Source: Melanopsichium pennsylvanicum
Lineage: Eukaryota > Basidiomycota > Ustilaginomycetes > Ustilaginales
Direction of reading: 5' to 3'
DNA length: 64,000 nucleotides
Assembly (NCBI GenBank): GCA_900208305.1
Contig: OAPG01000019.1
Coordinates: forward strand, 490,605 to 554,604
Position 1 is the first letter of the stretch. Each line of letters begins with the position of its first letter. The notes below the pieces were generated by a model that saw only the letters and a list, made by a program, of their open reading frames with translations, made no database searches and was not told the origin of the DNA. The translations under genes were made by a program, and so were the position numbers. Of the stretch, positions 39,886-64,000 are shown piece after piece.

Positions 39886-40349
39886 TGTCACCGGTTATGC
39901 CTTTTGATATTTTCATTTTGTAATTTTTCATTTTCACACGAAAAATTCGACTTAGCTGCGGCCGAGTCGAGATATCCCCTTCCCTTGGAATCATCATCTC
40001 CTTCAGCATCGCAATCAAGCCCTTTATTGTGTTTCCTTTTACTTTAGCTTAGTGATTATCATTGTCATTGGGGGGCCAACCCGGAAACGACTTGCATCGA
40101 CAAATACCATTAGCATTACCAGAACTATTGATAGCAACTTCCTTATTAGCATTCGCAACAGCAGTAATAGGTTTGGCGCGTGGCTCAATTTTTGCCACAC
40201 GCAACTCAGCCATCCAAATCCATCCGCCCATCCACCATCGGCACCTCCCTAATATTCCTCACTCCTTCCCTTTTTCCGGTAATCAGTAGCATTTTTTCAG
40301 CAAGCAATTCAATCTTTTCTATTATTAGCAGCTTTTTCCCCGTAGGCGT

Positions 40350-41729: not shown

Positions 41730-41765
41730 GCCCTTTGGATTATCGCGACCCAAACCCAGGGGCTA
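41717..41765 (+). promoter_or_regulatory. R2 candidate -1 frameshift signal
   Basis: GGGAAAC at 41717-41723 is read G GGA AAC in the gag frame, followed by GCC TAA. The -1 frame is open into the protease ORF. Downstream, 41726-41738 can pair with the segment ending CCCAGGGGCTAAG at 41764. The stem is imperfect: 11 of 13 pairs, one of them G-U. The uninterrupted core starts 5 nt after the heptamer. It is weaker than the R1 and R3 structures. Confidence 0.6.
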
Positions 41766-43444
41766 AGACATCCCGAATGGGTCCCAATAGCATAACGCCG
41801 TTTTCTCTTTTCGTTTCAGACTCTGCTCCCCTTCCCTCAAACCAGCCTTCGTGGTCTAAGTCTTCGTATCCATTGCCGCCGCAGGAAACCCTTGCTCCTA
41901 CGTCGAGAAAAAAAGGTTTTGTCTCTAGTCTCGGTCTTGTTTCGCAGCCAACATCATATTCGCAATCTCAATCGTATTTGCAATTTTCATCGTCAGCAGC
42001 TGCGCCTTTGGCAGTACAACAGCAACAGCAAACTCGAACTTCCGGCAACAATGCCGAAATTTCGTCTTCATCCCCCATTCCCCCGGCAACGCCACTCCTT
42101 GCGACCGAGGCATCTCAGCAGCCCCGCAACGTTGTCGACCTTACAGTCGAATTCCCACTTGCGCGGACTATTGCATTAGTCCAAAGTCGTCAGGACAAGT
42201 CTCGCAGAGTGTCGCCTTCCCCCTCTATTCGCACTCCCTCGCCACCGCCGCACATTCTTGAAGAGGCTCGTGCTCGCCAGTCTAAACAACAGCAACCGCC
42301 GCAACAGCAGCAGCATCAACAACAGCAACCGCCGCAACAGCAGCAGCATCAACAACAGCAACCGCCGCAACAGCAGCAGCATCAACAACAGCAACCGCCG
42401 CAACAGCAGCAGCAGCAACAACAACAACCGCCGCAACAGCAGCAGCAGCAACAACAACAGCCGCCACAGCAGCAGCAGCAGCAACAGCATCAGCAACCGC
42501 AGACTCTTCCAGCTCGCAGAAAAGGAGCTGTGGGTAAACCTAAGGCAGACATTCAGGCGTTACAGCAACGGGCGCATTACAGCCGATATGACCTGTTCAC
42601 TCTTTCAGTCATCGTCTCACCAGTCAGAGTCGGTATCAATTCAGATGAGGTGACTCGAGTGGTGGGAAGAGCAATAGTGGACGATGGTGCTTCAGTCAAT
42701 GTTGTTTCGCGTACAGCGCTTGATGCCTTACGACTTGACCAAACGCCGTTCACCATTGGCGTGGAGCCCAGCGATACTTATGTGCGTCTGGCTGATGGAC
42801 GACGTGTTAAGACAGATGGTAGTGTCACGCTTAGCATCGTGGTTAAAGGAGCAGATAATGAGTTGCCTGCAGAAGAGCTCGACTTCGAGGTCTTGCCAGT
42901 AGCAGAGCTATATATGATACTCGGCAAACCTTGGAAGCAACTAGTCAGCGCCGTTCAGTTTTACGAGCTGGATGTCATCTATGTTCCAGATAATCGCATT
43001 GCAGGCTTCAATCGTTATTGGATACCGTTGGTTTCTCTTGCGCATCGCCATCGACTAATACCTACCCCAACTACCCCACTCGAAGCAATCCGCGTGCTCA
43101 ACTCTACCACACCGCGATGGCCCAACGTTGGAGATTTTAAAAGGCTCAACAGCCCATCGGTCGAAGAACCGCAAGATCAAGATGTTGCTCAAGTAGCAAT
43201 TGAAGACAGCGAACCCGTTGACCACGCTATGTCATGGGCAGAGCTCCCTCAGAGTGACATCCAGCCGCAACCAAGAAAGGTCTCATTCGTCGAGCCAGTG
43301 GATGAAGCAGAGTTGGATCGATTGCAGAACCTGTATCCAGTGGAGGATGAAGATCCTGATTACCTAGTTAATCGCAAGCATTATCAAGAGGAGTTCCGGC
43401 CGTACAGAGTCAATGGTCATGAAGATGACGAGTCGGAAGATTGA
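41735..43444 (+). CDS. R2 Gln-rich and protease ORF
   Basis: It is in the -1 frame relative to gag, and the apparent start at 41735 is a TTG. It is most likely reached by frameshifting, so the true frame begins at the heptamer at 41717. The first half is low complexity with a Gln/Pro/His repeat of about 200 bp (42290-42490). A retropepsin-like domain follows (RAIVDDGASVNVVSRTALDA, MILGKPW). The active-site triad reads DDG where DTG or DSG is usual. It ends at a single TGA at 43442-43444, after which the same frame continues open into RT. Confidence 0.8.
   Translation: MDYRDPNPGAKTSRMGPNSITPFSLFVSDSAPLPSNQPSWSKSSYPLPPQETLAPTSRKKGFVSSLGLVSQPTSYSQSQSYLQFSSSAAAPLAVQQQQQTRTSGNNAEISSSSPIPPATPLLATEASQQPRNVVDLTVEFPLARTIALVQSRQDKSRRVSPSPSIRTPSPPPHILEEARARQSKQQQPPQQQQHQQQQPPQQQQHQQQQPPQQQQHQQQQPPQQQQQQQQQPPQQQQQQQQQPPQQQQQQQHQQPQTLPARRKGAVGKPKADIQALQQRAHYSRYDLFTLSVIVSPVRVGINSDEVTRVVGRAIVDDGASVNVVSRTALDALRLDQTPFTIGVEPSDTYVRLADGRRVKTDGSVTLSIVVKGADNELPAEELDFEVLPVAELYMILGKPWKQLVSAVQFYELDVIYVPDNRIAGFNRYWIPLVSLAHRHRLIPTPTTPLEAIRVLNSTTPRWPNVGDFKRLNSPSVEEPQDQDVAQVAIEDSEPVDHAMSWAELPQSDIQPQPRKVSFVEPVDEAELDRLQNLYPVEDEDPDYLVNRKHYQEEFRPYRVNGHEDDESED
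42290..42495 (+). repeat. CAG/CAA-rich tandem repeat in the R2 protease ORF
   Basis: Units of about 36 bp (CCGCCGCAACAGCAGCAGCA then CAACAACAGCAA) repeat about five times. They encode PPQQQQHQQQQ-type repeats that grade into pure Gln. Confidence 0.85.
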
Positions 43445-46400
43445 GCTGAGCGTATAACATCTCTGCTCTTTTCTCAATTCGGTTCTCAAGGCACCGCCGC
43501 TGAACGTCAGCACCTGCAAGCACTGCTTAAAGCTAAGCACATTGCTTTTGCCGAGTCTTCAGCTGATTGTAAGCAGAACCGCAAAGTCATCTGCAATCCA
43601 ATCTTGATTTCCGAACCTCCTGATACTGCAAGACGATCTCAAACCCAAGCACTCTCACCACCGCAAAAGGAGTTCCTACATAAGCAGGTACAAGATCTTA
43701 TCAGCAATGGTTTTCTGGTCAAAGTCGATGAAGACCAAGTGCGATGGATCTCAGAAACTAGAATTGTACCGAAGCCTGCATCCGAATTTGATTCCAATGT
43801 GTCGATCGACGAGCTCCGCAAGCAAGTCAATGCAGCACTCAAGGACGCTGGTCTTGAGTATGATGAGAGCCTGCCACCACCCACGACCATCTCCACACCT
43901 TTACCAGTAGCGGACGCCAAGGCACGGTATCGACTTGTTCACAATTACGCTCCCATCAATCGTTACATGCGGGATGCAGCGTTTGTGCCTGGCGATATCG
44001 CAGTCAAAGCATCCAAGCTTTCGAATAAGCGTTACCTTTTCAAAGGCGATGGTTGTGCCGGCTTCTTCATTGTTGCCAACTCTCGTCTTGCGACCTTGCT
44101 GTCAGTCACATACATCGAAGACCTTGGCTTCTACGGCTATACTGTTATGCCATTTGGATTCAAAGTGGGACCTTCGCTGTACTATCGCTTCATTACTACA
44201 GCGTTTGGAGACCTATTTGATCGTGATAGTGACTTCTGGATGGATGATGTCGCTGCTGGACATCAGGACTTTGGAGCATACTTTGTTTGGCTTCGCACAT
44301 TCTTGGATAGGGCAATTGATACCGGTTTTACATTGGCAGTCAGCAAGTGTCAGTTCCTTCAAGAGGAGATCACGTTCTGCGGCCAAGTTGTTGGTCAGAA
44401 TGGCATTAGGATTGACCCAAGTCGATTGAAAGCCATAGTCGACTGGCCAAAGCCGACGACGGTCCGGGAACTTATGGTTTTCCGCGGCATCTGCTCCTAC
44501 CTTCGCTCAAAGATCCCTTGCTTTGCTAAAGTGTTCGCCCCGCTTGACGAGCTTACTCAAAAAGTCGAAGACTACGACCAGAGTCTTGATCAGGCTTGGA
44601 ACACTAAGCATGATGCAGCGTTCCTTCGTATCAAGCAGGCTTTAGTCAATTCTAATGTGTTAAAGGAACCGAGGTATGATCGGCCTTTCATAGTTCAGAA
44701 CGATTGGAGTATCGAAGGTATGGGTGCCGTACTCATGCAAGAGTATGAGGTTTGTAAGGACGCCGTTGGCAAGTGGCAGTTGGTTATTGATCCACTTGAT
44801 CGGTCTGCAGAAGAGCAAGGAGTACGCCGTAAGGTTGCTTTCCCCATTGCCTATGCCAGCCGCAAGCTATTGCCTTCTGAAGCTCGCTACTCTGCACATC
44901 TGGGCGAATTAGCTGCAGCAAAGTTTGCACTAGATAAGTTCGCTTCATTCACCTTCGGCCAGCCAATCATCTTGATCACTGACTGCACGGCACTGCGCGA
45001 CATGCTGAGGACGGACAAGATGCCCGTTGCTCATGCTCGATGGCAAGAACAGTTGTTGGCCCACAACATCGTAGAGGTCAGGCACTGTGCTGGACGTTGG
45101 CATCAACTTGCCCATGGATTATCGCATCGACCCCAGGCAGCAACCGATGACCTTCCGCAACCTTTGCAAGAATATGGCATCTTAGCTATCGTTCCAGATC
45201 CTGACGAAGCTCGATCGTCTGCTCAGCGGTATCTTGAACTCGATCGCTTAACAGGACCGCTGCTGCAACGGTTCCAAGGTGATGAAATGGAACCGTTGAT
45301 CCGTTTTCTTCTTTTCCTCGAAATGCCCGAGTCACAGACTCTTCGCAAGAAGCTTGGCAAGTACGACTCTTATGTTATTCGCGATGGTGATCTTTACCAG
45401 CGCAAAGATGGAGAGCTTTACCGAGTCTTGCCACGACGAGAAGCACAGCAGTTCGCTCGCTCGGTCCATAACCAAAGCCACATGGGAATCGCCAGCACGA
45501 TTAGCATTTTACGATTACAGGAATCAGTTATTTGGCCTTCGATGTGGCGTGACGTGCGCGACATCATCAAGCGCTGCCCAACTTGCCAACAGTTTGGACC
45601 TCAACTCAGCAGCACCATCGATCCTGTTGTGATCACTTCGCCAATGGCTGTCTGGGCCATGGATTTCGTTAGTCTGCCGCTGTCTCAAGGTTGTAGTAAA
45701 GTGCTGGTTATAATCGATTCCTTCAGTCAATTCGTTTGGGCATTTGCTTGCACGTATCAACGAGCGCGTGATGTAGTCAAGGCATTGCAGGAGTTACGCG
45801 ATTCTCTTGGTATCTTGCCAGGAAAGATCATCACGGACGGTGGTTCGCATTTTGATTGCGCTGAAGTCTCAAACTTCCTAGTAGAGCATGAGGTCGAGCA
45901 TATCATCACCTCTGCTTACGCACCTTGGGTCAATGGGTTGGTAGAACGTCATAACGGTCTTCTCATCCAAACATTGCGCAAGCTGATTGCCAATCCGCTC
46001 GACGATACCGACTTACCTCCTCAGCAATGGCATCCGTACTTGGCAGTAGCAGTACGAGAGCTCAATTGTCGTCCGATGCCAGCTATGGCAAACTGGTCAC
46101 CAGTCGAGCTTCTCTATGGATTTACTATCAAGGATAGTCGCGAGCAGCAAGGAGAGTACCCCTCTGACGTCGCAGCAGCAAAAAGTCAACGCGCATTTGT
46201 CGATGCAATCCGGGTTGAAGCCTCTGCTCACCTCGAAGAAGAGCAAGGTAAACGTGTTGCTCAGTCCACACCGTACCGTAGTTCAGTGGCTTATGAACCT
46301 GGCGATTTAGTCCTCAAGCACCGCACCCAGCTCGAATCAACTTATTCCACGGCAGCAAAGATGGCTCCTCGCTGGGAAGGACCCTATGCCATTCAGTCTA

Positions 46401-46531
46401 AGCAGCGAAAATCATACATTGTTCGAAGCTTGATTGATGGACGACAAGAACGAGTTCATCAAGATCAACTCAAACCATACTGGCCTTCGCGAGAACTGGA
46501 AGAACCCGGCGATAGAGTTACAGAGCTTTGA
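43445..46531 (+). CDS. pol: R2 Pol: reverse transcriptase, RNase H, integrase
   Basis: It is in the same frame as the protease ORF, open from 43445; the first ATG-independent start considered was a TTG at 43604. The RT region has RYLFKGDGCAGFF, TVMPFGFKVGPSLYYRF and DFWMDDVAAG, where the usual Y-x-D-D box is WMDD. RNase H (FIVQNDWSIEGMGAVLMQ … HLGELAAAKFAL) and a zinc-binding HHCC follow (HNQSHMGIA … CPTCQQF). The integrase core carries D, D and E (WAMDFVSLPL, IITDGGSHFD, GLVERHNGLL). A GPY-type end follows (RWEGPYAIQ), with no chromodomain. The frame is intact apart from the TGA at 43442. Confidence 0.87.
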   Translation, partial: AERITSLLFSQFGSQGTAAERQHLQALLKAKHIAFAESSADCKQNRKVICNPILISEPPDTARRSQTQALSPPQKEFLHKQVQDLISNGFLVKVDEDQVRWISETRIVPKPASEFDSNVSIDELRKQVNAALKDAGLEYDESLPPPTTISTPLPVADAKARYRLVHNYAPINRYMRDAAFVPGDIAVKASKLSNKRYLFKGDGCAGFFIVANSRLATLLSVTYIEDLGFYGYTVMPFGFKVGPSLYYRFITTAFGDLFDRDSDFWMDDVAAGHQDFGAYFVWLRTFLDRAIDTGFTLAVSKCQFLQEEITFCGQVVGQNGIRIDPSRLKAIVDWPKPTTVRELMVFRGICSYLRSKIPCFAKVFAPLDELTQKVEDYDQSLDQAWNTKHDAAFLRIKQALVNSNVLKEPRYDRPFIVQNDWSIEGMGAVLMQEYEVCKDAVGKWQLVIDPLDRSAEEQGVRRKVAFPIAYASRKLLPSEARYSAHLGELAAAKFALDKFASFTFGQPIILITDCTALRDMLRTDKMPVAHARWQEQLLAHNIVEVRHCAGRWHQLAHGLSHRPQAATDDLPQPLQEYGILAIVPDPDEARSSAQRYLELDRLTGPLLQRFQGDEMEPLIRFLLFLEMPESQTLRKKLGKYDSYVIRDGDLYQRKDGELYRVLPRREAQQFARSVHNQSHMGIASTISILRLQESVIWPSMWRDVRDIIKRCPTCQQFGPQLSSTIDPVVITSPMAVWAMDFVSLPLSQGCSKVLVIIDSFSQFVWAFACTYQRARDVVKALQELRDSLGILPGKIITDGGSHFDCAEVSNFLVEHEVEHIITSAYAPWVNGLVERHNGLLIQTLRKLIANPLDDTDLPPQQWHPYLAVAVRELNCRPMPAMANWSPVELLYGFTIKDSREQQGEYPSDVAAAKSQRAFVDAIRVEASAHLEEEQGKRVAQSTPYRSSVAYEPGDLVLKHRTQLESTYSTAAKMAPRWEGPYAIQSKQRKSYIVRSLIDGRQERVHQDQLKPYWPSRELEEPGDRVTEL

Positions 46532-47208
46532 GCTTAAAAACTCTATTGTGAAAACCCCACGTTCCGCGTTATGTGGTATTCAATACGATCGCATCGCTCC
46601 TCCTACCACCACCTCCCGCCATCACCATTCCTCTCTTACGCTGCATGCCTTTTTTCCGCGCATCAACTTGACCATCATCGTCACAATCGTTGCCAACCCC
46701 ATTCATCATTGTCACCGCAAAAATTGCTTTCAGCACGATCGATATGCTCAATACCGCCATTACCTTCTTTCTTGGCCAACTCTCGAAGCTCTTGTCGATC
46801 ATTGACATCAGCTGGCGCTCACGCACTTTGCAGCTGTCCTTTCACACTCGCTGTGGTACCTTCACCGGGTCACGACGCTTTTAATCTCTCGATGACCACC
46901 GAATAAGTGACTATTCCCGCATAACCAACTTAAAGTGGCAATGACAGCACTGCCGCGGGACTTGCTTAAGCCATTTCCATTCCTCCATTCTACTATTCTA
47001 CTGTTCGACTGTTTACTCGCACCTTGTATCGCAACGCCGCGTCTACTTTCGCAGCAGCAAGTTATACCAGCATTCTTTGCCGCAATGTATAGCATACTCG
47101 GCATCGTATCATTTCCTTTCCTTTCCACATTCGTTTCTCTCAGCGTTTAGTAATATCCTTGTTTTGTACGACGTCTCCGAGGACGGAGCCTGTTTCTGTT
47201 TGGGCCTC
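46532..47208 (+). other. R2 non-coding tail
   Basis: The region between the pol stop and the 3' LTR. No convincing antisense gene is seen here, unlike R1 and R3. No clear polypurine tract lies before the LTR (GTTTGGGCCTC). Confidence 0.5.
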
Positions 47209-47390
47209 TGTCACCGGTTATGCCTTTTGATATTTTCATTTTGTAATTTTTCATTTTCACACGAAAAATTCGACTTAGCTGCGGCCGAGTCGAGTTATCC
47301 CCTTCCCTTGGAATCATCATCTCCTTCAGCATCGCAATCAAGCCCTTTATTGTGTTTCCTTTTACTTTAGCTTAGTGATTATCATTGTCA

Positions 47391-49582
47391 CCGGAGGGCC
47401 CGGAGGAGTTCCGTCCAAACGGAAGCTACAAACGTGGTTCCTCGGTCAGATACAATGGTGTCCGGGAGGCCAAAGTATGAAAAGACGTAGCGGTGGAGCT
47501 GGTACGCCAAAGTCTCCGCCGTATCAGTTTTGTTTGCAGGAATGAAGACCACAAACTTGGTGAGGCGGTCGACGACTACGAGAATGGAGTTGTAGGTGGT
47601 GCCGTTGGCAAGGGAGGGCGGGAGGTCAGTGATGTGGTCCATGGTAATAGTGGACCACGGCCAATCGGGAGGGACCGACGGGAGAAGGTAGCCGTGGGGT
47701 TTGTGACGGGGGTGTTTTGCCCTTCGGCAGGCCGCGCAAGAGGCGACATAGCTGTCGGTGTCCTGCACCATGGTTGGCCAGTAAAAACGTTGACGCATGA
47801 GATGGAGGGTCGTCTTGCGGCCAGGATGTCCCGCCGTAGGGTGGTCGTGCAGTAGGTGGAGTGCCTTGTCCCGTAATTGGGGTGGCAGGTAGACGTGACC
47901 CTCTGTGGTGTACGGGACACCATCGCAGACGGCAACGTTTGGGGGGAGGTTGGCCGCTTTCCGGAGGGTTTCGATCCACTCCGTAGGCAGGGGGTCCAAG
48001 GAGTGTACGCCGGCTGCCCTTGCAAACAAGTTTGCAGGGAGGAGAGTGGCTTGGTTGGCGGGGTCTGGGCGCAACGGTCCGTCGGGGAACAAGTTGTGCT
48101 GGCAACTCAGAGCGTCAGGGCGGACGGCCTCCTTACCCGGACGGTAGTGGAGGACGAAGTCGAACTCAGCCAGGTCGGCTTGCCAGCGGGCTTGGCGATG
48201 GTTGAGTTGTCGCTTTGTCTGAAAATACTGGAGCGCCTGGTGGTCGGTGTAAATGAGGAACGGTCGGGTGAGGCCATGGAGGTAGTGTCTCCAAGCGCCG
48301 CAGGCGTCTACAATAGCCAGGAGTTCCTTGTCGTGGATTTCGTAGTTACGCTCCGCCGGGATCATCTTTTGCGACCAGTATGCCACAGGATGGAGGGTGT
48401 GCGAGCGGCTGTTGGGCTCGGCGCTTGCGTCGGCGCCCGGCTGTGGGTGCCACTGCAACAGCACGGCGGCTACCACAGCATCGCTTGCGTCTGTTTCGAC
48501 GACGGTGTAGAGCGTTGGAGAGAAGTGCCGGAGGATAGGGGCAGAGGTGAACGCTTCTTTCAGCCAGTTGAAGGCTGCCGTTGCTTCCGGGGGCAGATCT
48601 ACCTTTCCGGAGGCTCCTCCTTTCAGGAGGTCGGTGAGGGGGGCCGCTACACGAGAATAGTGGCGGATGAAGCGACGGTAGAAGTTGGCAAATCCGAGGA
48701 AGACTTGGATCTGTCGGATCAACTGTGGTGGCGGCCACTCCAAGACTGTACTGACCTTGGTCGGGTCCATGGAGAGGCCGTCGGGGCTGACAAGGTAGCC
48801 GAGGAACTCGACGGAGGCGGTGTGGAATTCGCATTTGTCCGGAGCGCAATACAGCTGATGCTTCCGTAATCGATCCAGCACTTGGCAGACATGGTGGTGG
48901 TGGTCGGCCTCGTTGTCGGAGAAGACTAGGATGTCGTCCAGATATACGATGACGGACACGTCTAAGAGATCCGACAGCATGTGGTTCATGAGCCGTTGGA
49001 AGGTCGCCGGAGCGTTGCAGAGGCCGAACGGCATGACGAGGTATTTGTAGCTGCCGTAGCGCGTGCGGAATGCAGTCTTCCATTTGTGGCCGGGGGCGAT
49101 CCGGAGGAGGTTGTAGGCACCCTTCAGGTCAAATTTAGTGAAGATCTTGGCCGTCGCCAGCCGATCAAGGTGTTCGGAGATGAGGGGGATTGGGTAGCGA
49201 TCCTTGACGGTGATGGCGTTGAGGGCGCGGTAGTCCACACACGGCCGGAGGCGACCGTCCTTCTTTGGTACAAAAAGGAGGGGCGCGGCAGCTTGGCTAC
49301 TCGACGGTCGGATGAAGCCAATGGTCTGCATCTTCCGGAGGTAGTTCCGGAGCTCCTCTTGTTTGCGGTGCGACAGAGAGTAGAGTGCGCCGTAGGGAGG
49401 GGTTTTGCCAGCCTCCAGGTTGATCTCGTGGTCGTGTGGGTGGTGGGGAGGCAATTGGTTGGCCCTCTCAGCGTCGAAGACGTCGGCGTACTCGCGGTAT
49501 TCTGGCGGTAGGACGGCGAGGTTGGTCGCGGAAGCTCGGAGGGGCAGTAGCTCCTCTTCCGGTTCTGGGAGGACCAGCAGGT
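47391..49582 (-). CDS. pol: R1 pol, middle piece: RT, RNase H, integrase N-terminal half
   Basis: Reading from 49582 down, the RT carries the canonical blocks FVPKKDGRLRPCVDYRALN, FTKFDLKGAYNLLRI, YLVMPFGLCNAPATFQ and VIVYLDDILVF. RNase H follows (VVETDASDAVVAAVL, YEIHDKELLAIV, IYTDHQALQYF). Next are the integrase zinc module (HDHPTAGHPGRKTTLHL … CAACRRAKH) and the first two core Asp residues (ITMDHITDLP, IVSDRGTTFVASVW). The frame is uninterrupted. It is bounded by R3 at 49583 and R2 at 47390. Frame beyond these points is LTR sequence of the inserts. DALSCQ stands where relatives have DALSRQ. Confidence 0.93.
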
Positions 49583-50593
49583 TGTCACAGGAGTGGGTCC
49601 CAAGGAAGAGGTCTGCGCAGACCAGAGATGTTGAATCGGCTGAGATCCGGTGGGAGAGCATGTCTCGACGGATCTCAGGGAGATCTGGTGGATATTGGTG
49701 GGCTCATGGGATTTAAGGTTAGCGCAGGACCGAGAAGTTGAATCGGACGAAATCCGGTGAGAGAGCAGGTCTCAACGGATCTCACGGGAATTCGGCGAGT
49801 GGCAGTGACTCGCCGGATATCGAAGGTATCGATGGCAAGGGGAGCATCTGCGATGGCGGCGACCAACGCCACGCCGGAACGACACGTGGGCCAATCGACG
49901 CCCAGGGGGCAACGGAGAGGGAGCACGCGGGCGTGCTCAGAAGCACCCTGCCGAAGGACTAGGGGGCGGTCTTATCGTGCGGGGGTCCAATCTCGACGCA
50001 CGCAGGTCGTACAGTACCGATGGACCTCGCACACGATACATATATATAAATACTCTGTTCCCCGCTATCGGATGAGCGGAAGCTCATCCACTCTATCTTA
50101 TATCTCAGTCACACATAGTTATCAGTACGTCGTACTTACCATACTCTTCACACGTCGCACATCGCAATACCATTTATTGCGATCCATATAGTCTGTGTCC
50201 CCGTCGGTGAACGGAGAACAACGTATAGACGTCGTTGACACCACAATCGACGCTGTAGCACCTCAACTACAGGCGGAACCTCAACTGCGGGCCTGGCACC
50301 ACAACCAGTCCCTCATAACTCCACCGGCAACGACGGCTGAGGTCCAACCCAGCCATCAGCAGTATCCCGTCGACGTCGTGACACTCACGTCGACCGAATA
50401 CCCCGTCCGAGCTTGCCGCGTTACCTCTGTACGGAGTGTCACCAGCGGTCAGCCGATATCCATCGAGAGATCGCCACTCGCAGGATTCTCTTCGATATCC
50501 GTTGAGGCCAAGCTTAACCGCCGGAATTCACTGAAATCTGGCGAGTCGCGCTTTCTCACGGGAATTTGGATCTCTGGCACGCGACCGCTGACA
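49583..50593 (+). repeat. R3 5' LTR with TATA box
   Basis: 1011 bp. TATATATAAA at 50041-50050 is the likely core promoter, so U3 is about 490 bp. The sequence just after the LTR (TTAGAGTGGATCGTACAAG) is conserved in the decayed R3 relative at 20968 and is the likely primer-binding/leader segment. Confidence 0.93.
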
Positions 50594-50633
50594 TTAGAGT
50601 GGATCGTACAAGCGACGCCCCAAGTTCACCAAG

Positions 50634-52004
50634 ATGGCCGACTCTGCACTACATGACAGACTCGGCCGCCTCATCGCCCTCCTTGAGCAGCAGCAGGTAG
50701 ACAATGCCGCCCTCAAGGCTCGGCTCGACCAACAGGAGACTCCCTCCCCTGGTCGACGAGCTAGGGAGCATGATCTAAGCTCCCCGACCCGTCGAGCCTC
50801 GCAGCAGGCGGATGAGTCCTACCTCGGTGGTCTCGAGACACCCACTCCTGCAACTAGACCACACCCTCGGTCCGTCACCTTCGACATTCTTGACCGACGA
50901 GCGTACACCGACCAAGAAAAGTACGCTACGCCTACTGGACCTCGGTATGTCAAACCGGTGACCCCGGGGGCATGGACCGGCACTGGCAGTGAACAGGACA
51001 CTCAGCCCCACGCTGCCCTCAAGACTCCATTCCCCAAGCTCGACACTCGCGACATCGATATCTTCATTCTCGAGGCCGACGCTTGGTTCAAGGCTAATGG
51101 TGTGTACGACCATACTTCGATGATCCTACACACGGCAGCTCAGCTCGAGGGCACCGCTCGAGAGTGGTGGAAGGGTAAGCTCTGCGTCAACCGGCATCGT
51201 CAAGGGATGCTCTTCCATGATTGGAGCCACTTCACCACTCGACTCAGGGAGCTGTACAATCAGCGCAGCGACAGGGTCAATGCCTACAACAAACTCCTAG
51301 CGTTGAGGCTTATTACCGACGCACCAGGAGCAGCAACGCGACATGTCGAGCAATTCCGAGACCTGGCAGCTCAGTGCCACATGGAGGACCCTGAGTTTGT
51401 CATCGACCTCTTCCGAGGGAGCCTTACTCGCTCACTTCAGGAGAAGTTCGAGCGTAACCCACCTGAAGACCAGTGGGCCTGGTACCGGGAGGTCGAGGAC
51501 ATTGATCGCCAGCGTATGCGGCATCAGCAGAATGCTGTCCGCTTCGCCCCAACCCCAGCAATCAGGACTGCTCATACCGAACCGGGCATTCCCCAGAGAA
51601 CTGGCTCTCGACCGTTGCCCCCTCATCTGGCACAGAAGCTGCCGGTACGGGAAGCACCACCGAGACCTCGCGACGACCGAAGGGTCGTCACCGGCCCAAC
51701 GACATTTAACAGCAACGCTTGTAGGGTCTGCGGCAAGACCGGGCATTGGCAGCAGAACTGTCCAGACGCCAAGCCAACGGTTTACCCGGCTAGACCATCA
51801 GGACCACAGATGCGAGCGCACGTGGTGTTGGAGTCGGAGAAACCACAGGACGGCTCACCAGAGGAAGGAGACGGAGCTGAAGACCATCGCAAAGACGATG
51901 GCGGTCTTGAAGACCACTTTGATCCCAACCTCTTCGCCGACGATCACAACGCAGGCGAGCCCTACCACGAGGACAAGGGAAACGACCTTGGAGCGATGCA
52001 ATGA
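50634..52004 (+). CDS. gag: R3 Gag
   Basis: The 456-residue structural polyprotein starts MADSALHDRLGRLIALLEQQ with a short coiled-coil-like segment. A retrotransposon-gag core follows at about 135-285 (DIDIFILEADAWFKANG, LEGTAREWWKGKL, VEQFRDLAAQCHM). One CCHC knuckle lies at about 360 (CRVCGKTGHWQQNC), then an acidic tail. The stop TGA at 52002-52004 overlaps the first ATG of pol (ATGA). The GGGAAAC heptamer lies 18 nt upstream of the stop. Confidence 0.93.
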   Translation: MADSALHDRLGRLIALLEQQQVDNAALKARLDQQETPSPGRRAREHDLSSPTRRASQQADESYLGGLETPTPATRPHPRSVTFDILDRRAYTDQEKYATPTGPRYVKPVTPGAWTGTGSEQDTQPHAALKTPFPKLDTRDIDIFILEADAWFKANGVYDHTSMILHTAAQLEGTAREWWKGKLCVNRHRQGMLFHDWSHFTTRLRELYNQRSDRVNAYNKLLALRLITDAPGAATRHVEQFRDLAAQCHMEDPEFVIDLFRGSLTRSLQEKFERNPPEDQWAWYREVEDIDRQRMRHQQNAVRFAPTPAIRTAHTEPGIPQRTGSRPLPPHLAQKLPVREAPPRPRDDRRVVTGPTTFNSNACRVCGKTGHWQQNCPDAKPTVYPARPSGPQMRAHVVLESEKPQDGSPEEGDGAEDHRKDDGGLEDHFDPNLFADDHNAGEPYHEDKGNDLGAMQ

Positions 52005-52023
52005 TGGCATGCATCGCTCTAAG
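51977..52023 (+). promoter_or_regulatory. R3 candidate -1 frameshift cassette
   Basis: GGGAAAC at 51977-51983 is read G GGA AAC in gag. After 7 nt, GAGCGATGCA (51991-52000) pairs perfectly with TGCATCGCTC (52010-52019). Four more pairs, one of them G-U, extend it outward (51987-51990 with 52020-52023), giving 14 bp. The 9-nt loop (52001-52009) contains the gag TGA and the pol ATG. The -1 frame is open from the heptamer into protease. Confidence 0.8.
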
Positions 52024-55000
52024 ACCGCCTTCGCCATCACCTTGTATATGTCAAGATTGTTCATTATGTTTCTCTGCAGCTTCCGGTGCCTCAGTACTCG
52101 AGCTAGCAGGTACGGTCAACCACCATCCTGCTAGCATTCTCGCCGACACCGGCGCTGCATTGTCTATAGTTTCAGCTCCGTTTGTTTGCAAGTACTCGAT
52201 AACCACAAAACCCATAAAAAACAGAACCGTACACGGAGTGACCGGACATTCCCTCACGATCACGAGCGCTGCTGACGTCAACGTAGTCATAGGAGGACAA
52301 CACCTAGGGATGCTCAAGGTCGCTGTCGCTGACGCTAGCGACTACAATTTCATCCTGGGGTACGATGAACTACGACGCCTACAGCCAAGGGTCCATTGGG
52401 ATACTGGACAGCTCAATTTTGGAAAAACCAACGAGATCCGGTCAGACGCGGTCGTTCAAGGGATTTCACCGAAATCCGCCGAGACCGGCCGATCTGCCGA
52501 ATCTCGAGCAAACTTAGTAGTACATGGCTACGAGTTTGTCGACGCCAACGAGCTCGTTCAGGCGGCACTACGGGATGGCCCCATAGGGGTCATGCTAATC
52601 AGCGCTCCTCCGACGTCGCTCCCGTCGTTTGGCTTTGTCCCCACGGGAGGCGACAAAGGCATAGAGATGGAAACGACACTAGAAGAGCCTCCCACTGCCG
52701 TCGACATCCCAGCCCCGTACTACCCCCTCAAGGATGTATTCGACGAGGTCAAAGCGGACAAGCTTCCCCCTCACACAAAGCACGACTTGCACATCGAGCT
52801 ACTACCCAGTTCGACGCCACCTCAAGGTCCGCTATATCTCAAGGGCCCTAAGGAGATGGCCGAGCTGAGGAAGTACCTCGAAGAGAATCTCGAGAAAGGA
52901 TTCATTCGGCCCTCAAAGAGCCCGGCGCGATCACCCGTCCTTTTCGTGCCTAAGAAGGACGGCGGCCTGCGACTCTGCGTAGACTACCGCGGTCTCAACG
53001 AGGTCACGGTCAAGAACCAAGCTCCACTGCCTCTAATCGAGGAGCAGCTGTTCCTCCTACAAAAAGCAAAGATCTATACCAAGCTGGACCTAAAGGCAGC
53101 TTACAACTTGGTTAGGATCGCCGATGGGGACGAATGGAAAACCGCGTTTGGAACTCAACTCGGACTGTATGAGTATCTGGTCATGCCATTCGGATTGGCA
53201 AATGCGCCCGCGCACTTCCAATCGCTCATCAACACCATCTACCGCGACATCATTGGCGTATACGTGGTAGTATACCTTGACGACTTCCTGATCTTCAGCG
53301 ACAACGAGAAGGAACACATCGAGCACGTCAGGACGGTGCTCAGTAGGCTCAAGGTATGGCGGTTATTCGCCAAACTCTCAAAGTGCGTGTTCCATACCGA
53401 TACTGTTGAGTTCCTCGGCTACATCATCAAGCCGTCAGGTATCGAGATGGACCCCGACAAGATCAGGACTATCAAGGAATGGCCGATGCCGGAGTCTATA
53501 CACGACATCCAACGCTTCCTCGGGTTCGCCAACTTCTATCGCAGATTCATCTCTCACTTTGCACGTATAGCGAGACCGCTCACTTCCCTCGTTAAGCCCA
53601 CAGAGCGATTCAAGAAGTTCGACCTCCCTGACGACGCTCGCACTGCTTTCCACAAGCTGGTGGAAATGTTCACCACCGCTGGGGTTCTCAAACACTTCGA
53701 CTACCATCGTCCTACCCGGTTGGAAACGGACGCAAGCGACTTCGCTCTCGCTGGAGTACTCAAACAAGAGCACGACGGACAATGGCACCCGATAGCATTC
53801 TACTCGCGCAAGATGGCATCGGCGGAGAAGAACTACGAGATCCATGACAAGGAACTCCTCGCTGTTGTCGTCTGTCTCAACCACTGGCGGCACATGCTTG
53901 CAGGACTACCTAGTCAGCTCATTATTCTCACTGATCACGAGGCGCTCAAATACTTCAAGTCTCAGCGGAAGATCACAGGTCGGCAGGCTCGATGGTCAGT
54001 GTTACTCGCTGACTTCGACTTTGTACTCCAATACAGACCAGGAGATAAAGCGGGAGAGCCAGATGCGTTGACACGACGAAGTGATATGCAGCCGACCGCA
54101 GAAGAAGACCTACACAACGTCCGACAGCTGTTACCGGCACGAGTATTTGCCGAGGATTTCGAAAACCGCCGAGTGGACTCAACTCGGCGGATTTCACCAA
54201 AATTCGCCAAGAAAGAGCTACTCGCCGAATCTCAAATAAATATGCTAAAGCCAACAATGTCCAATATCGCGGAGGGAGGGCTGGTCCAACTCGTAAAGAC
54301 TTTCCAGCCGCTCGATGCCGAGCTCGCAGAGCTTCATCAGAAGCAACCTTTCGAAGTTAGACATGGCCTGTGGTATCGCGACGGTCGGCTAGTGGTGCCG
54401 CAAGTCACATTACCAGGTAAGAAAGGTCAACGCAACACTCGGAGTGCCGCCGAAGCAAAGGATCGCTCGCTCTCGGTGGAGCACCTGAGATACATGGTAA
54501 TGTCCCAATGCCACGACGGCGCTACCGCTGGCCATGCAGGTCGAGACGCCACCCTCGAGCTCACAAGGCGGCATTATTGGTGGCCGAATATGGCGGCATG
54601 GGTTGCTGACTATGTAGCAAGCTGCCCAGTGTGCGCTCGATATAAAGCACCGCGACACCGACCATATGGCCTTTTGCAGCCGCTGTCGACGCCGTCAAGA
54701 CCCTGGAATTCCATCTCAATGGATTTCATTGAAGGGTTACCTAAATCGGAGGGGTATGACTCGATCTTTGTAGTGGTCGACCGGTTGACCAAATATGCCA
54801 TCTTAACCCCGACGTACAAGACAATAACGTCAGAGCAGACGGCAAAGATGCTCAAAGACCAAGTTATGTCCCGTTTCGGGGTACCGGAGCACATTGTCTC
54901 AGACCGCGGCCGACAATTTGTCTCGGCGGCATGGAAAGAGTTCACCGACAAGCTGGTCATCCACCACTCGCTCAGCACAGCCTACCACCCACAGACGGAC

Positions 55001-55765
55001 GGGCAAACGGAGCGAGTCAATCAAGTTGTCGAGCAGTACCTCCGTATGTACTGCAACTACGAGCAGGACAACTGGGTAACCTGGCTGCCGATGGCCGAGT
55101 TTGTTTACAACAACACGGTCCACAGCAGCATAGGAGTCTCGCCTTTCTTTGCTTGCTACGGGTGGAATCCAAAATCACACCCCGATCTCCCAGAACAAGT
55201 CGGTGTGCTTGACCCCAAGAAAAAAGAGTTTGCCACCCGAAGAAAAGAATTTACGGAGTATCTACAGGAGCAAATCAGGTACGCTCAAATCCGAACCGTT
55301 GAGCAATATAACCGTAAACGGAAGGACATCGAGTTCAAAGTTGGAGACATGGTCTACGTCAACCGAAAGAACTGGAAGACAGCTCGACCCAGTCCCAAAC
55401 TCAACACAAGATTAGCAGGCCTGTTCCCCATCCTCGAACGAATCGGCAGAAGAGCATACCGGCTCCAACTCCCAGCAAGTTTGCGCGTACACAACGTTTT
55501 CCATGTCTCGATGCTCGAGCCTCAAAGGGCAAGCTCACTCCCACAGCGCTCCACACTCAAAGTCACGCCGCCCCTACCGGACAACACGCTAGAATTTGAG
55601 GTAGAGGCTATTGTGGGAAAGCGAAAACAGGGTAGGCAAGTACAGTACAAAGTCCAATGGCAGGGCTACCCCAAGGAGGCAGCCTCGTGGGAACCGACAG
55701 ACTGTCTCAACTGCCCAGACCTCATCCGGGAGTATGAGGAATCGGCGGGGGGACGGAGACACTAA
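52001..55765 (+). CDS. pol: R3 Pol: protease, RT, RNase H, integrase, chromodomain
   Basis: It is 1254 residues from the ATG at 52001, but the frame is open from the upstream heptamer, so a Gag-Pol fusion is the likely product. In order it has retropepsin (SILADTGAALSIV), RT (LFVPKKDGGLRLCVDYRGLN, TKLDLKAAYNLVRI, VVVYLDDFLIFS) and RNase H (LETDASDFALAGVL, IHDKELLAVV). Next come the integrase HHCC (HDGATAGHAGRD … CPVCARYKA) and the DDE core (SMDFIEGLPK, IVSDRGRQFVS, GQTERVNQVV). A GPF-like end and a chromodomain follow (FEVEAIVGKRKQGRQVQYKV, WQGYPKEAASWEPTD). All catalytic residues I can check are present, and no stop or frameshift is seen. Confidence 0.95.
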   Translation: MMACIALRPPSPSPCICQDCSLCFSAASGASVLELAGTVNHHPASILADTGAALSIVSAPFVCKYSITTKPIKNRTVHGVTGHSLTITSAADVNVVIGGQHLGMLKVAVADASDYNFILGYDELRRLQPRVHWDTGQLNFGKTNEIRSDAVVQGISPKSAETGRSAESRANLVVHGYEFVDANELVQAALRDGPIGVMLISAPPTSLPSFGFVPTGGDKGIEMETTLEEPPTAVDIPAPYYPLKDVFDEVKADKLPPHTKHDLHIELLPSSTPPQGPLYLKGPKEMAELRKYLEENLEKGFIRPSKSPARSPVLFVPKKDGGLRLCVDYRGLNEVTVKNQAPLPLIEEQLFLLQKAKIYTKLDLKAAYNLVRIADGDEWKTAFGTQLGLYEYLVMPFGLANAPAHFQSLINTIYRDIIGVYVVVYLDDFLIFSDNEKEHIEHVRTVLSRLKVWRLFAKLSKCVFHTDTVEFLGYIIKPSGIEMDPDKIRTIKEWPMPESIHDIQRFLGFANFYRRFISHFARIARPLTSLVKPTERFKKFDLPDDARTAFHKLVEMFTTAGVLKHFDYHRPTRLETDASDFALAGVLKQEHDGQWHPIAFYSRKMASAEKNYEIHDKELLAVVVCLNHWRHMLAGLPSQLIILTDHEALKYFKSQRKITGRQARWSVLLADFDFVLQYRPGDKAGEPDALTRRSDMQPTAEEDLHNVRQLLPARVFAEDFENRRVDSTRRISPKFAKKELLAESQINMLKPTMSNIAEGGLVQLVKTFQPLDAELAELHQKQPFEVRHGLWYRDGRLVVPQVTLPGKKGQRNTRSAAEAKDRSLSVEHLRYMVMSQCHDGATAGHAGRDATLELTRRHYWWPNMAAWVADYVASCPVCARYKAPRHRPYGLLQPLSTPSRPWNSISMDFIEGLPKSEGYDSIFVVVDRLTKYAILTPTYKTITSEQTAKMLKDQVMSRFGVPEHIVSDRGRQFVSAAWKEFTDKLVIHHSLSTAYHPQTDGQTERVNQVVEQYLRMYCNYEQDNWVTWLPMAEFVYNNTVHSSIGVSPFFACYGWNPKSHPDLPEQVGVLDPKKKEFATRRKEFTEYLQEQIRYAQIRTVEQYNRKRKDIEFKVGDMVYVNRKNWKTARPSPKLNTRLAGLFPILERIGRRAYRLQLPASLRVHNVFHVSMLEPQRASSLPQRSTLKVTPPLPDNTLEFEVEAIVGKRKQGRQVQYKVQWQGYPKEAASWEPTDCLNCPDLIREYEESAGGRRH

Positions 55766-56188
55766 GCTGAAGAGGATCTTGCAAGCCGCAATGCATGCCA
55801 TCACAGGAGAGTAAGATGGTGAGAAGCTCGACAACGATGTCGAGCGGCAAAGGTAGAAGGTTGCAGGAATCGAGATCCGGACAATGACCCCAACTCAGGG
55901 AATTTCCACAAAATCCGCCAAGTACTGCACAATTCAACGGATCTCAGAAAAAATTAAAATAAAAAAAAAATTGCGGGGTAACGAGAACCTAAAAAGGCAC
56001 GAAATCCGCCGAGGAATGCATGATCCAAAGGATCTCAGGCCTTAACGGGCGATGCGAGTTGACAAGTATATTCCTCAGAGTCGTCGCACCTGTTGCACAC
56101 CGAAAGTCACGCAATCAAGCTCACACTAAGTTCAATGGGTAACGAGGCACTGCCATTGCAACAAGTCGACACAGCCAGCGGGCACAGA

Positions 56189-57336
56189 CTACTCCGCAGA
56201 CTCGGGGGCTAACGAAGGCCCAGGTACCGAAGGAGGCTCGATATCCTCGAAGGGCGAGCACATGGACCGCAGTCGCCGCTGACGATCAAAGTATTCCTCG
56301 ATCGTCGTCAGTACCGGCACGCGCCGACCGCGAGGCGAGGCAGACCAAATGATACGCATTGCGTGCGCCCAGTTCGGGTCTGCCACACCATCCGAGTCAC
56401 AGTCGAGGCCACGTACCTCTCCCAACCCTCGACCCCCCGCTCCCGTGACGTGAGCTCGCTCGACGCCACGCTCGCCTCGATGCAGATGGCTAGGAGGGGC
56501 GTCACCAGCGTATACCATTGTTGGCAACGCCCTCTCGGTTTGCACGCACTTCTTGTGGCCGCCCAGATGGCAATGCACACAAGCGCGCGGAGTTCGGCCC
56601 TTGCCACCGGCAGAAAGCACGTCAGCAAAGGCCGACGGGAAACAACTGGGACGAAACAAAAAAAAGGGAAGAACCAGAGTCAGCAGTGAGTATCGAACGT
56701 TGAAGGGGGCAGTGGTACTTATGGTATACCAAGCTTGGCGCAGCGGGCGCATTGCCAGCTCGGCCAAGGCATGCAGCCTTCGGTTAGCCGAAGGAGAACC
56801 AGACGATGCAGTCAACCGGCCGTCACGGAACCCTCCGATACCACCCAAGTGGGGGGCCAGGCCTCGCACGCCACGAACACCAGCAACACCGGAGCAATAA
56901 GCGACTCCGCCCACAGCGCAACCTCGAGGTAGTTGGGCACATGAGGCCCAACGAGCGGAGCGACAGGTTCCTCCCCGACCTCGCTAATCCTCCCTACGAC
57001 CGACTCCTCCACCTCCATCGCCTCCAGCCGCTCTTCCTCCTCCTCCGCAACATCGTTTCCCAAAAACAGCGGTTCCAGTGGCCGCGGCGTCGACCGCAAC
57101 GCGACAAGCTGCTCGGCAGCCACAATTTCGATGGGCTGCTCGCCAGCAGCAGGGGACGACGAAGCTGTGGCCTCGAGGCCGACAGCCGAAGGTGTTGTCA
57201 CTGCCCAAGTGGCAGGATTTTGGTTGCGAAGCCTGGCGCTACGGCGCACAGGCTCTTCTGCCCTGAGGGCAGGCAGTCGTGTCGACGCTGGTCGCGATGA
57301 CGCAGCGGAAGGGGCATTATTCGAGTGGTTCGACAT
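56189..57336 (-). CDS. R3 antisense ORF region, possibly a spliced gene
   Basis: On the minus strand an ATG at 57336 opens 174 codons to 56812 (MSNHSNNAPSAASS…, RRSARLRNQN, an acidic EEEEERLEAMEVEE stretch). A second frame is open to 56189 and contains RACVHCHLGGHKKCVQ and an end rich in Arg and acidic residues. A plausible intron separates upstream from downstream coding (donor GTATACC near 56731, branch-like CTGAC, acceptor CCCAG near 56646). I could not find a splice joining the first ORF to the second, so the model is incomplete or the gene is damaged. A TTAAATA lies about 60 bp upstream of the ATG (57397-57403). Position and orientation mirror the R1 antisense gene. Confidence 0.45.
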
Positions 57337-57438
57337 CTTGACGGTTTAGAAGGTGCTGTTGGTGGAAGAACAAGTCGGGGGAACACCCGCCGACCCTATT
57401 TAAGCCTCAACAGAGCTCGGCTCTCGAAGGGGGGGTAG

Positions 57439-58449
57439 TGTCACGGGAGTGGGTCCCAAGGAAGAGGTCTGCGCAGACCAGAGATGTTGAATCGGCTGAG
57501 ATCCGGTGGGAGAGCATGTCTCGACGGATCTCAGGGAGATCTGGTGGATATTGGTGGGCTCATGGGATTTAAGGTTAGCGCAGGACCGAGAAGTTGAATC
57601 GGACGAAATCCGGTGAGAGAGCAGGTCTCAACGGATCTCACGGGAATTCGGCGAGTGGCAGTGACTCGCCGGATATCGAAGGTATCGATGGCAAGGGGAG
57701 CATCTGCGATGGCGGCGACCAACGCCACGCCGGAACGACACGTGGGCCAATCGACGCCCAGGGGGCAACGGAGAGGGAGCACGCGGGCGTGCTCAGAAGC
57801 ACCCTGCCGAAGGACTAGGGGGCGGTCTTATCGTGCGGGGGTCCAATCTCGACGCACGCAGGTCGTACAGTACCGATGGACCTCGCACACGATACATATA
57901 TATAAATACTCTGTTCCCCGCTATCGGATGAGCGGAAGCTCATCCACTCTATCTTATATCTCAGTCACACATAGTTATCAGTACGTCGTACTTACCATAC
58001 TCTTCACACGTCGCACATCGCAATACCATTTATTGCGATCCATATAGTCTGTGTCCCCGTCGGTGAACGGAGAACAACGTATAGACGTCGTTGACACCAC
58101 AATCGACGCTGTAGCACCTCAACTACAGGCGGAACCTCAACTGCGGGCCTGGCACCACAACCAGTCCCTCATAACTCCACCGGCAACGACGGCTGAGGTC
58201 CAACCCAGCCATCAGCAGTATCCCGTCGACGTCGTGACACTCACGTCGACCGAATACCCCGTCCGAGCTTGCCGCGTTACCTCTGTACGGAGTGTCACCA
58301 GCGGTCAGCCGATATCCATCGAGAGATCGCCACTCGCAGGATTCTCTTCGATATCCGTTGAGGCCAAGCTTAACCGCCGGAATTCACTGAAATCCGGCGA
58401 GTCGCGCTTTCTCACAGGAATTCGGATCTCTGGCACGCGACCGCTGACA
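57439..58449 (+). repeat. R3 3' LTR
   Basis: 1011 bp, TGTCACGGGAGTGGG … CGCGACCGCTGACA. It differs from the 5' LTR at four sites, each a CpG in one copy and TpG or CpA in the other. Confidence 0.93.
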
Positions 58450-59043
58450 CAGGTCCTCCTCAGTGGAGACCAGCTGTCGCCGGCTGACCAAGTTGTGGAG
58501 TTTGTTCCTTTTGAGTTTGGGGTTGGAGGGCACCGTGACGGTGTGGGGGACCCAGAGGTCCCACGTACGGAGGGTATAGTTTGGCTCCGGCCTGGCGGCC
58601 TCGATCCAATCCATACCCAACAGCACGTCGTGGGAGGTCATGGGGGTGATGAAGAGTTGGTGGCGTGAGGTGATGCAGTGGTTGTTGATGATGATATCCA
58701 CCGCCGCGTGGCGACTGATGGCGGCCGACATGCCCTGGAGGAATGTGGCGTGGACGGATTTACGGAGGGAGTGGGTAGGAATGTTGGCCGTTGCGACCAT
58801 TTTGGGAGTAATGAAAGAGGCGGTGGCGCCGGTATCGAGCAAGGCGAGGCCTTGCGTGTCGCTGACGCTTACCAAGCATTTGTAGGTTGGTAAGGTAGGG
58901 TGTCGATGGATCCGGAGAACGGATCCCTCTTGCTCCACGACGGGAGTGTCGGTCCGGTGGGCTGCCCAGAATGCTGCGGCGAGCACCCGGAGCTGGCTTA
59001 GGTTGTCGATGGGTTCGGACCGAAGGAACCCATCGACCCTTAG
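58450..59043 (-). CDS. R1 pol, N-terminal piece: protease
   Basis: The -1 frame relative to R1 gag, open from the slippery heptamer at 59043-59049. It encodes a retropepsin with LALLDTGATASFITPKMV and a downstream VLLGMDWI flap-region block. The R3 insertion at 58450 cuts it shortly after the protease domain. Merging one TSD copy with the sequence left of 49583 continues the same frame into RT. Confidence 0.88.
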
Positions 59044-59049
59044 TTTCCC
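59005..59049 (-). promoter_or_regulatory. R1 -1 frameshift cassette: GGGAAAC plus perfect hairpin
   Basis: On the minus strand GGGAAAC (59049-59043) is read G GGA AAC in gag and is followed at once by the TAA stop. After a 5-nt spacer (TAAGG), GTCGATGGGTTC (59037-59026) pairs perfectly with GAACCCATCGAC (59016-59005) across a 9-nt loop, CTTCGGTCC. The -1 frame runs open through the stop into protease. This matches the X XXY YYZ rule for -1 frameshifting. Confidence 0.87.
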
Positions 59050-63472: not shown

Positions 63473-63480
63473 CTCCCAAG

Positions 63481-63760
63481 TGTCAGCAGTTGCGTGCCAG
63501 AGATCCGACTTCCCGTGAGAAAACGCGACTCGCCAGATTTCAGTGAGTTCCGGCGGCTAAGCTTGGCCTCAACGGATATCGAAGAGAATCCCGCAAGTGG
63601 CGATCTCTCGACGGATATCGGCTGACCGCTGGTGACACTCCGTACAGAGGTAACGCGGCAAGCTCGGACGGGGTATTTGGTCGACGTGAGTGTCACGACG
63701 TCGACGGGATACTGCTGATGGCTGGGTTGGACCTCAGCCGTCGTTGCCGGTGGAGTTATG
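63481..63760 (-). repeat. Truncated R3-family LTR at the chromosome end
   Basis: 280 bp, starting TGTCAGCAGTTGCGTGCCAG. It matches in reverse the last 280 bp of the R3 LTR (50314-50593) with scattered substitutions. It stops inside the LTR at GGTGGAGTTATG, where telomeric repeats begin; the rest of the LTR is missing. Confidence 0.9.
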
Positions 63761-64000
63761 GGTTAGGGTTAGGGTTAGGGTTAGGGTTAGGGTTAGGGTT
63801 AGGGTTAGGGTTAGGGTTAGGGTTAGGGTTAGGGTTAGGGTTAGGGTTAGGGTTAGGGTTAGGGTTAGGGTTAGGCGTGTGGATCGAAAACGAGTTGGAA
63901 GCTGCGTTAGGGTTCGGGTTAGGGTTAGGGTTAGGGTTAGGGTTAGGGTTAGGGTTAGGGTTAGGGTTAGGGTTAGGGTTAGGGTTAGGGTTAGGGTTAG
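63761..64000 (+). repeat. Telomeric TTAGGG array
   Basis: Tandem TTAGGG running rightward, the expected orientation for a right chromosome end. It is interrupted by about 31 bp of other sequence at 63876-63906, followed by one TTAGGG, a TTCGGG variant, and TTAGGG again to the window edge. Confidence 0.97.

Follow-up and report, generated by a model that had tools for sequence, protein, structure and literature searches.

The closest described counterpart of the site reported here belongs to mammals. In PEG10, which derives from a sushi-ichi-like Ty3/gypsy element, reports describe the heptamer GGGAAAC just before the stop of ORF1 and, beyond it, a spacer of 5 nt and a pseudoknot on the 3' side (PMC10570562, PMC2800197). 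G_GGA_AAC is also listed, in a review, among the most shift-prone heptamers with mammalian ribosomes (PMC5009743). The same text reports that a 2003 survey of recoding in LTR retrotransposons included animal elements with -1 pol frames, many of them with classical heptamers, and fungal elements of both +1 and -1 type. The chromodomain Gypsy elements VdLTRE2/3/4 of Verticillium have -1 pol frames, and differ from the element studied here in that the available description gives no slippery site or structure (PMC3441728). In one published tree the chromoviruses of fungi cluster with the Sushi-like ones of vertebrates (PMC2774666). A 2024 study takes a frameshift in the metaviral ancestor of PEG10 to be almost certain, the proxy chosen for that ancestor having none (PMC11011659). 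Because PEG10, the retroviral G_GGA_AAC class and the fungal -1 elements precede it, we count the signal described below as a further case of a known type.

Melanopsichium pennsylvanicum is a smut of the Ustilaginales. In a stretch of 64,000 nt of its DNA (the window), we have analysed the gag-pol junction of a retrotransposon, R1. The nucleotide sequence there is very probably a signal for -1 programmed ribosomal frameshifting from gag into pol in a chromodomain Ty3/gypsy family of smuts. A putative signal of this type, known from retroviruses and PEG10, recurs across several retrotransposon families of the one fungus. An earlier, sequence-only reading of the window had suggested that such use in smut elements may be undescribed. 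No description of an R1-type site in smut elements was found among the papers listed in the literature searched, which leaves aside most subscription papers, including the 2003 survey. GGGAAAC combined with a spacer of 5 nt and a structure 3' of it is, however, already described for PEG10.

R1 and the elements nested in it

R1 is a chromodomain Ty3/gypsy element (chromovirus) on the minus strand of the window. Its domains are arranged in the order protease-RT-RNase H-integrase, with a chromodomain at the integrase end (PF00385, E 3.7e-08), and its two LTRs of 433 bp, at 60747-60315 (5') and 37202-36770 (3'), are 98.15% identical. Two plus-strand elements are nested in it. R2 (49583-58449), with LTRs at 49583-50593 and 57439-58449 that are 99.6% identical and a 5-bp target duplication, CAGGT, cuts the R1 pol frame (59076-58450, with the aspartyl protease) at 58450, the open frame continuing to 58384 within R2. 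The displaced part of pol with RT, RNase H and the N-terminal part of the integrase is found at 49703-47388, in which R1 sequence runs from 49582 down and 49703-49583 lies in the R2 LTR. R3 (39886-47400), with LTRs at 39886-40077 and 47209-47400 that are 97.9% identical, is also inserted in pol, the end of which, with the chromodomain, is displaced to 39887-39105. Since R2 and R3 are inserted in its pol, the R1 copy of the window is dead and unable to make full Pol.

R3 itself has an in-frame TGA at 43442-43444 between its protease-side and RT-side open frames, at variance with four other copies of its family, in which the frames are open (1619-1641 aa). A CAG-rich tandem repeat that encodes glutamine runs occupies 42285-42500 of its -1 frame.

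Layout of the R1 gag-pol junction

Read on the minus strand, the 3' end of R1 gag is CCG GAG GGA AAC TAA. The slippery heptamer GGGAAAC (59049-59043) stands in the phase G GGA AAC of the gag frame and the gag stop TAA (59042-59040) lies directly 3' of it, as the sequence-only reading had it, exact to the base. A spacer of 5 nt (59042-59038), the stop included, leads to stem 1, the 5' arm of which, GTCGATGGGTTC (59037-59026), pairs with the 3' arm GAACCCATCGAC (59016-59005) in 12 of 12 Watson-Crick pairs. The arms enclose a 9-nt loop, CTTCGGTCC (59025-59017), of which 59023-59017 (TCGGTCC) would be the 5' strand of a proposed stem 2. Spacer, perfect 12-bp stem and loop had all been given correctly, as re-reading of the coordinates on the minus strand confirms.

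The gag open frame, from stop to stop, extends over 60425-59040, ends in ...PPEGN* and contains Ty3_capsid (PF19259) and Retrotrans_gag (PF03732); a zinc knuckle (PF00098) scores 20.3 bits, just under the cut-off of 20.8. The -1 frame, which had been claimed to run open into the protease, is indeed open over 59076-58384 with an aspartyl protease domain inside (RVP_2, E 8.6e-10). The overlap that permits a -1 shift from gag to pol measures 37 nt, and one in-phase X XXY YYZ heptamer is present in it. As expected of an X XXY YYZ signal, the heptamer is in phase, the -1 frame is open across the site, and the structure is stable and starts 5 nt after the heptamer, within the range of about 5-9 nt.

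We propose that ribosomes reaching the end of gag would read G GGA AAC there and that most of them would meet TAA at once and stop, which would yield Gag. Some would slip back by one base, by tandem slippage at G GGA AAC assisted by the stem, and would go on to make Gag-Pol, in which the enzymes are an extension of the shell protein. Slippage, its rate, the exact stimulator and the downstream pairing of the loop are what we infer.

In this layout R1 is like PEG10, as far as the accessible reports go, in having GGGAAAC in phase by the stop, a 5-nt spacer, a 3' structure and a protease in the -1 frame, and in both the -1 codons read GKL. The two differ in that a pseudoknot and frameshifting have been reported for PEG10, a single domesticated gene, whereas R1 represents a fungal transposon family in which both features are putative. 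Retroviral G_GGA_AAC sites belong to the same heptamer class as that of R1, which is known from its sequence, and differ from it in host and element.

Stability of the hairpin and chance expectation

The R1 stem with 5 flanking bases has a folding energy of -21.1 kcal/mol, a stability reached by none of 200 shuffles; in a context of 66 nt it has z = -2.0 and is equalled by 10 of 200 shuffles. We also scanned the first 63.7 kb of the window on both strands for perfect Watson-Crick stems of at least 12 bp with a spacer of 1-10 nt and a loop of 3-15 nt. Among 127,220 start positions there are 20 hits, all of them the R1 hairpin read from both strands. The assertion that a perfect 12-bp hairpin at such spacing is unlikely by chance is therefore borne out, this hairpin being the sole one in the scan. 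GGGAAAC occurs 8 times on the two strands of the same 63.7 kb; R1, R2 and R3 account for three of these occurrences with their in-phase sites between gag and pol.

Heptamer and structure in other Ty3/gypsy families

The Ty3/gypsy families of the genome were grouped by RT identity to R1, which is mostly 95-100% in family A (that of R1), about 59% in B1 and B2, 38% in C, 29% in D and 25% in E. Their gag-pol overlaps are 37 nt long in A, 82 in B1, 37 in B2, 19 in D and 133 in E, and each of these overlaps holds one in-phase X XXY YYZ site, which is GGGAAAC in A, B1, B2 and D and GGGAAAT in E (one copy). The site that had been noted at the R1 junction is thus not peculiar to it, as the same heptamer stands at the B1, B2 and D junctions. 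Stems of different sequence follow the heptamer after spacers of 5 nt in A, 3 in B1, 4 in B2, 5 in D and 6 (or 9) in E. When the fold of the 50 nt downstream was ranked among GC-matched window positions, A fell in the top 1.3%, B1 in the top 0.4% and B2 in the top 2.9%, followed by E at 5.9%, D at 38% and C at 57% and 89%.

Both nested elements have the site. In R2, a B1 element, the in-phase heptamer at 51977-51983 (plus strand) has the gag stop 18 nt downstream, and stem 1, of 14 bp with one G-U, is formed by arms at 51987-52000 and 52010-52023. In R3, a D element, the in-phase heptamer (41717-41723, plus strand) lies within the 19-nt overlap, and a weak stem 1 at 41729-41764 (arms 41729-41738 and 41755-41764, 9 of 10 pairs) is not unusually stable, being equalled by 38% of matched positions. 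We regard the pattern of site plus structure, as predicted from these folds, as strong in A and B, as suggestive in E and as only partial in D, which has the site without a notable stem. The overlap of family C contains neither an X XXY YYZ heptamer nor a stable structure, though its pol is in the -1 frame.

Gag of family C ends CAA AAC TAG or CAA AAC TAA (L040, about 2035-2044; L042, about 1996-2005), and so shares the A-site half AAC before the stop with R1 and not the P-site half. A different layout is seen in two Ty1/copia copies, which differ from each other: gag and pol are in one frame with a single TAG between them (L119:1969-1971 and L120:1970-1972), which is a readthrough layout, and the stretches examined of these copies have no GGGAAAC.

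Conservation among genome copies

A 24-base junction pattern of R1 is found at 33 places of the genome with at most 3 mismatches, 30 of them exact, and at no place when read backwards. Related copies without the heptamer or with a broken stem had been named as what would speak against the signal. Of the 33 R1 copies, 32 have an intact heptamer and 1 has lost it; all 12 pairs are kept in 28 and 11 pairs in the other 5, each lost pair being a single transition. The heptamer is present in 33/33 copies of B1, 24/24 of B2 and 5/5 of D, and stem 1 is complete in 32/33 B1 copies and at its 12 of 13 pairs in 24/24 B2 copies. Each count is of separate genome positions whose junction resembles the query by 90% or more, and because the census selects in this way, copies without the junction are absent from its denominators. 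Such copies exist in A (L052 and L053, C2) and in B, where the junction is missing in 4 of 59 B-type copies (L081, L110, L111 and L117). The B-type set consists of 59 of the 65 longer RT-match rows together with the window's R2, five rows and some fragments being left out; also left out of the census were the B2 copy L068 (1-nt indel) and the divergent L048 (heptamer GGGGAAC).

A long protease match is present in 30 R1 copies, 13 of which have an open pol frame of 1198 aa. The 33 R1 copies are near identical to each other, and heptamer and stems contain, if anything, proportionally more of their variable sites (7/45) than the other positions do (3/63; p 0.09). Eight of these 10 sites are CpG and the changes are mostly transitions, which looks like the decay of dead copies. 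With all four families pooled there is no difference between structured (11/168) and other (11/137) positions (p 0.66). B1 and B2 alone show sparser variation in the structure (4/96 against 7/32, p 0.005), the opposite direction to A.

Compensatory change in stem 1

An alignment for compensatory changes in the two arms had been proposed as a check, and it gives most in the B elements. From the heptamer onward B1 and B2 align without gaps with 57 of 84 positions identical. In stem 1, four pairs are still formed after a change in both partners, one pair has a change in one partner, and 2 of the 14 pairs of B1 are lost in B2. With L048 added, 93.7% of the cells of the three-sequence alignment pair, and four two-sided pairs are reached by 10 of 500 shuffles; with the partner slid by 1 to 3 bases, 24-51% are paired with 0 or 1 two-sided pairs. 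For R1 the check gives less: against L058, the one divergent relative found, there are 2 two-sided changes, 8 pairs kept and 2 broken, as many two-sided changes as in 117 of 500 shuffles, which is consistent with a kept stem and not significant alone. The compensatory changes of B, in three sequences, are the best evidence for selection on the stem itself. The L058 relative (L058:1-108, minus strand) is stop-ridden and has AGAAAAC at the junction.

Gag ends in other species

Other species were compared by their proteins alone, in which codons are not visible. The search with R2 Gag found 161 relatives; the 120 listed are mostly from Ustilago hordei, U. nuda and related species, with some environmental ones, and in 29 of these 120 a Gly-Asn is followed by exactly six further residues before the end, as in R2 and B2. 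Of the 43 listed relatives in which a zinc knuckle can be recognised, 20 have this end, 10 hold such a Gly-Asn but run on, several of them being predicted fusions, and the other 13 have different ends and are often truncated. Such a pattern would be expected if G GGA AAC and its distance to the stop were fixed in an otherwise variable region.

R1 Gag has 6 relatives, and the 4 with a complete end all have Asn directly before the stop, preceded by Gly in one and by Glu in three. These Glu-Asn ends, together with the AGAAAAC of L058, indicate that in the R1 clade the heptamer is variable in its P-site half and that GGG is not universal. The three Glu-Asn ends belong to environmental Gag relatives. 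None of the four relatives of R3 Gag ends like R3.

A simple hairpin or a pseudoknot

Whether the stimulator is a simple hairpin or an H-type pseudoknot, in which the loop of stem 1 would pair downstream (with a long linker in R1), we consider evenly balanced. Signals of the X XXY YYZ type often, though not always, have a pseudoknot. For each of the five families that have a GGGAAAC/T site, a downstream stretch can pair with the loop over 6-7 contiguous bases: TCGGTCC with GGACCGA in A, TGATGGC with GCCATCA or GCCATCG in B1 and B2, GACCCA with TGGGTC in D, and GGGGAC with GTCCCC in E. Against dinucleotide shuffles of 60 or 100 nt downstream, the combined p for this pairing is 0.0015 or 0.0044, and 0.005 or 0.016 without B2, which is a homologue of B1. 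However, no single family is convincing alone, with p from 0.019 to 0.16 (60 nt) and from 0.034 to 0.17 (100 nt), and stem 1 of B2, D and E had been picked by eye ahead of this test.

A pseudoknot is likely in the B elements, judging by the predicted pairing. In R2 the 5' strand TGATGGC (52002-52008), which includes the gag stop TGA, faces the 3' strand GCCATCA at 52033-52039, and this predicted stem 2 is intact in 33/33 B1 and 24/24 B2 copies. The R1 hairpin may also be stem 1 of a pseudoknot. Its putative and weak partner strand GGACCGA (58955-58949, minus strand) is 49 nt past stem 1, with p 0.019 (60 nt) and 0.069 (100 nt), and L058 keeps 5 of the 7 pairs and breaks 2. Two-sided changes in stem 2 were looked for in B (B1, B2 and L048) and between R1 and L058, and none was seen.

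Discussion

The frameshift reading has to be weighed against three other explanations of the junction. The first is that Gag-Pol is made by splicing out the end of gag, which we consider very improbable. This explanation can appeal to the gene model MEPE_06620, another R1 copy, in which gag is joined to the protease through an apparent predicted intron matching about 59200-59061, and to several Ustilago gene models that run on past EGN into protease sequence. However, the MEPE_06620 junction deletes the last zinc-knuckle cysteine and the entire conserved end of gag, and splicing leaves the in-phase heptamer in four families unexplained. Gene callers typically yield models that bridge two overlapping frames, and this also counts against splicing.

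Even less credit can be given to a separate translation of Pol, by re-initiation or internal initiation after gag. The pol frame of B1 does have ATGs at the junction. In the pol frame of R1, however, no ATG lies between the heptamer and the protease DTGA, which starts at residue 72 while the first Met after the heptamer is residue 84, so that separate initiation of Pol is unlikely for R1, and the conserved heptamer would again be left unexplained. Equally slight is the chance that the hairpin has a different role in the RNA (packaging, dimerisation or reverse transcription) and stands next to the heptamer incidentally, since, although hairpins are common in retrotransposon-type RNAs and this one is known from its sequence, stems of unlike sequence trail the heptamer at short spacers (3-6, or 9 nt) in A, B1, B2, D and E.

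Two Rfam matches at the junction, both sub-threshold, were rejected as chance; one is to mir-181 on the opposite strand, with 22.6 of the required 45.5 bits, and one to a Giardia snoRNA. A PDB search with R1 Gag returned 16 weak matches only (E 0.05 or worse), mostly zinc knuckles, and the scan for R1 protease relatives in viral contigs returned none.

The frameshift signal as proposed recurs in at least four Ty3/gypsy families of one small genome, with the same heptamer, differing stimulators and many open-frame copies, alongside copia copies of readthrough layout. The smut families thus offer a natural series for asking which part of a frameshift stimulator is conserved, and fungal chromodomain elements a comparison for the question of the PEG10 ancestor. 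We speculate, tentatively and with more doubt than confidence, that GGGAAAC with a close pseudoknot might be one ancient cassette of chromodomain Ty3/gypsy elements in which the stem sequence has turned over, and that the PEG10 and smut signals might descend from one site. The agreement between PEG10/sushi-ichi and the smut signal, compared by description, is limited to heptamer, spacer and layout.

At 35690-36129 there is an R1-like LTR, oppositely oriented, that shares 88% identity with the LTRs of R1. A TTAGGG-type array occupies 63759-64000, where window and contig end, and a piece of R2-type LTR on the other strand (63480-63760) adjoins it.
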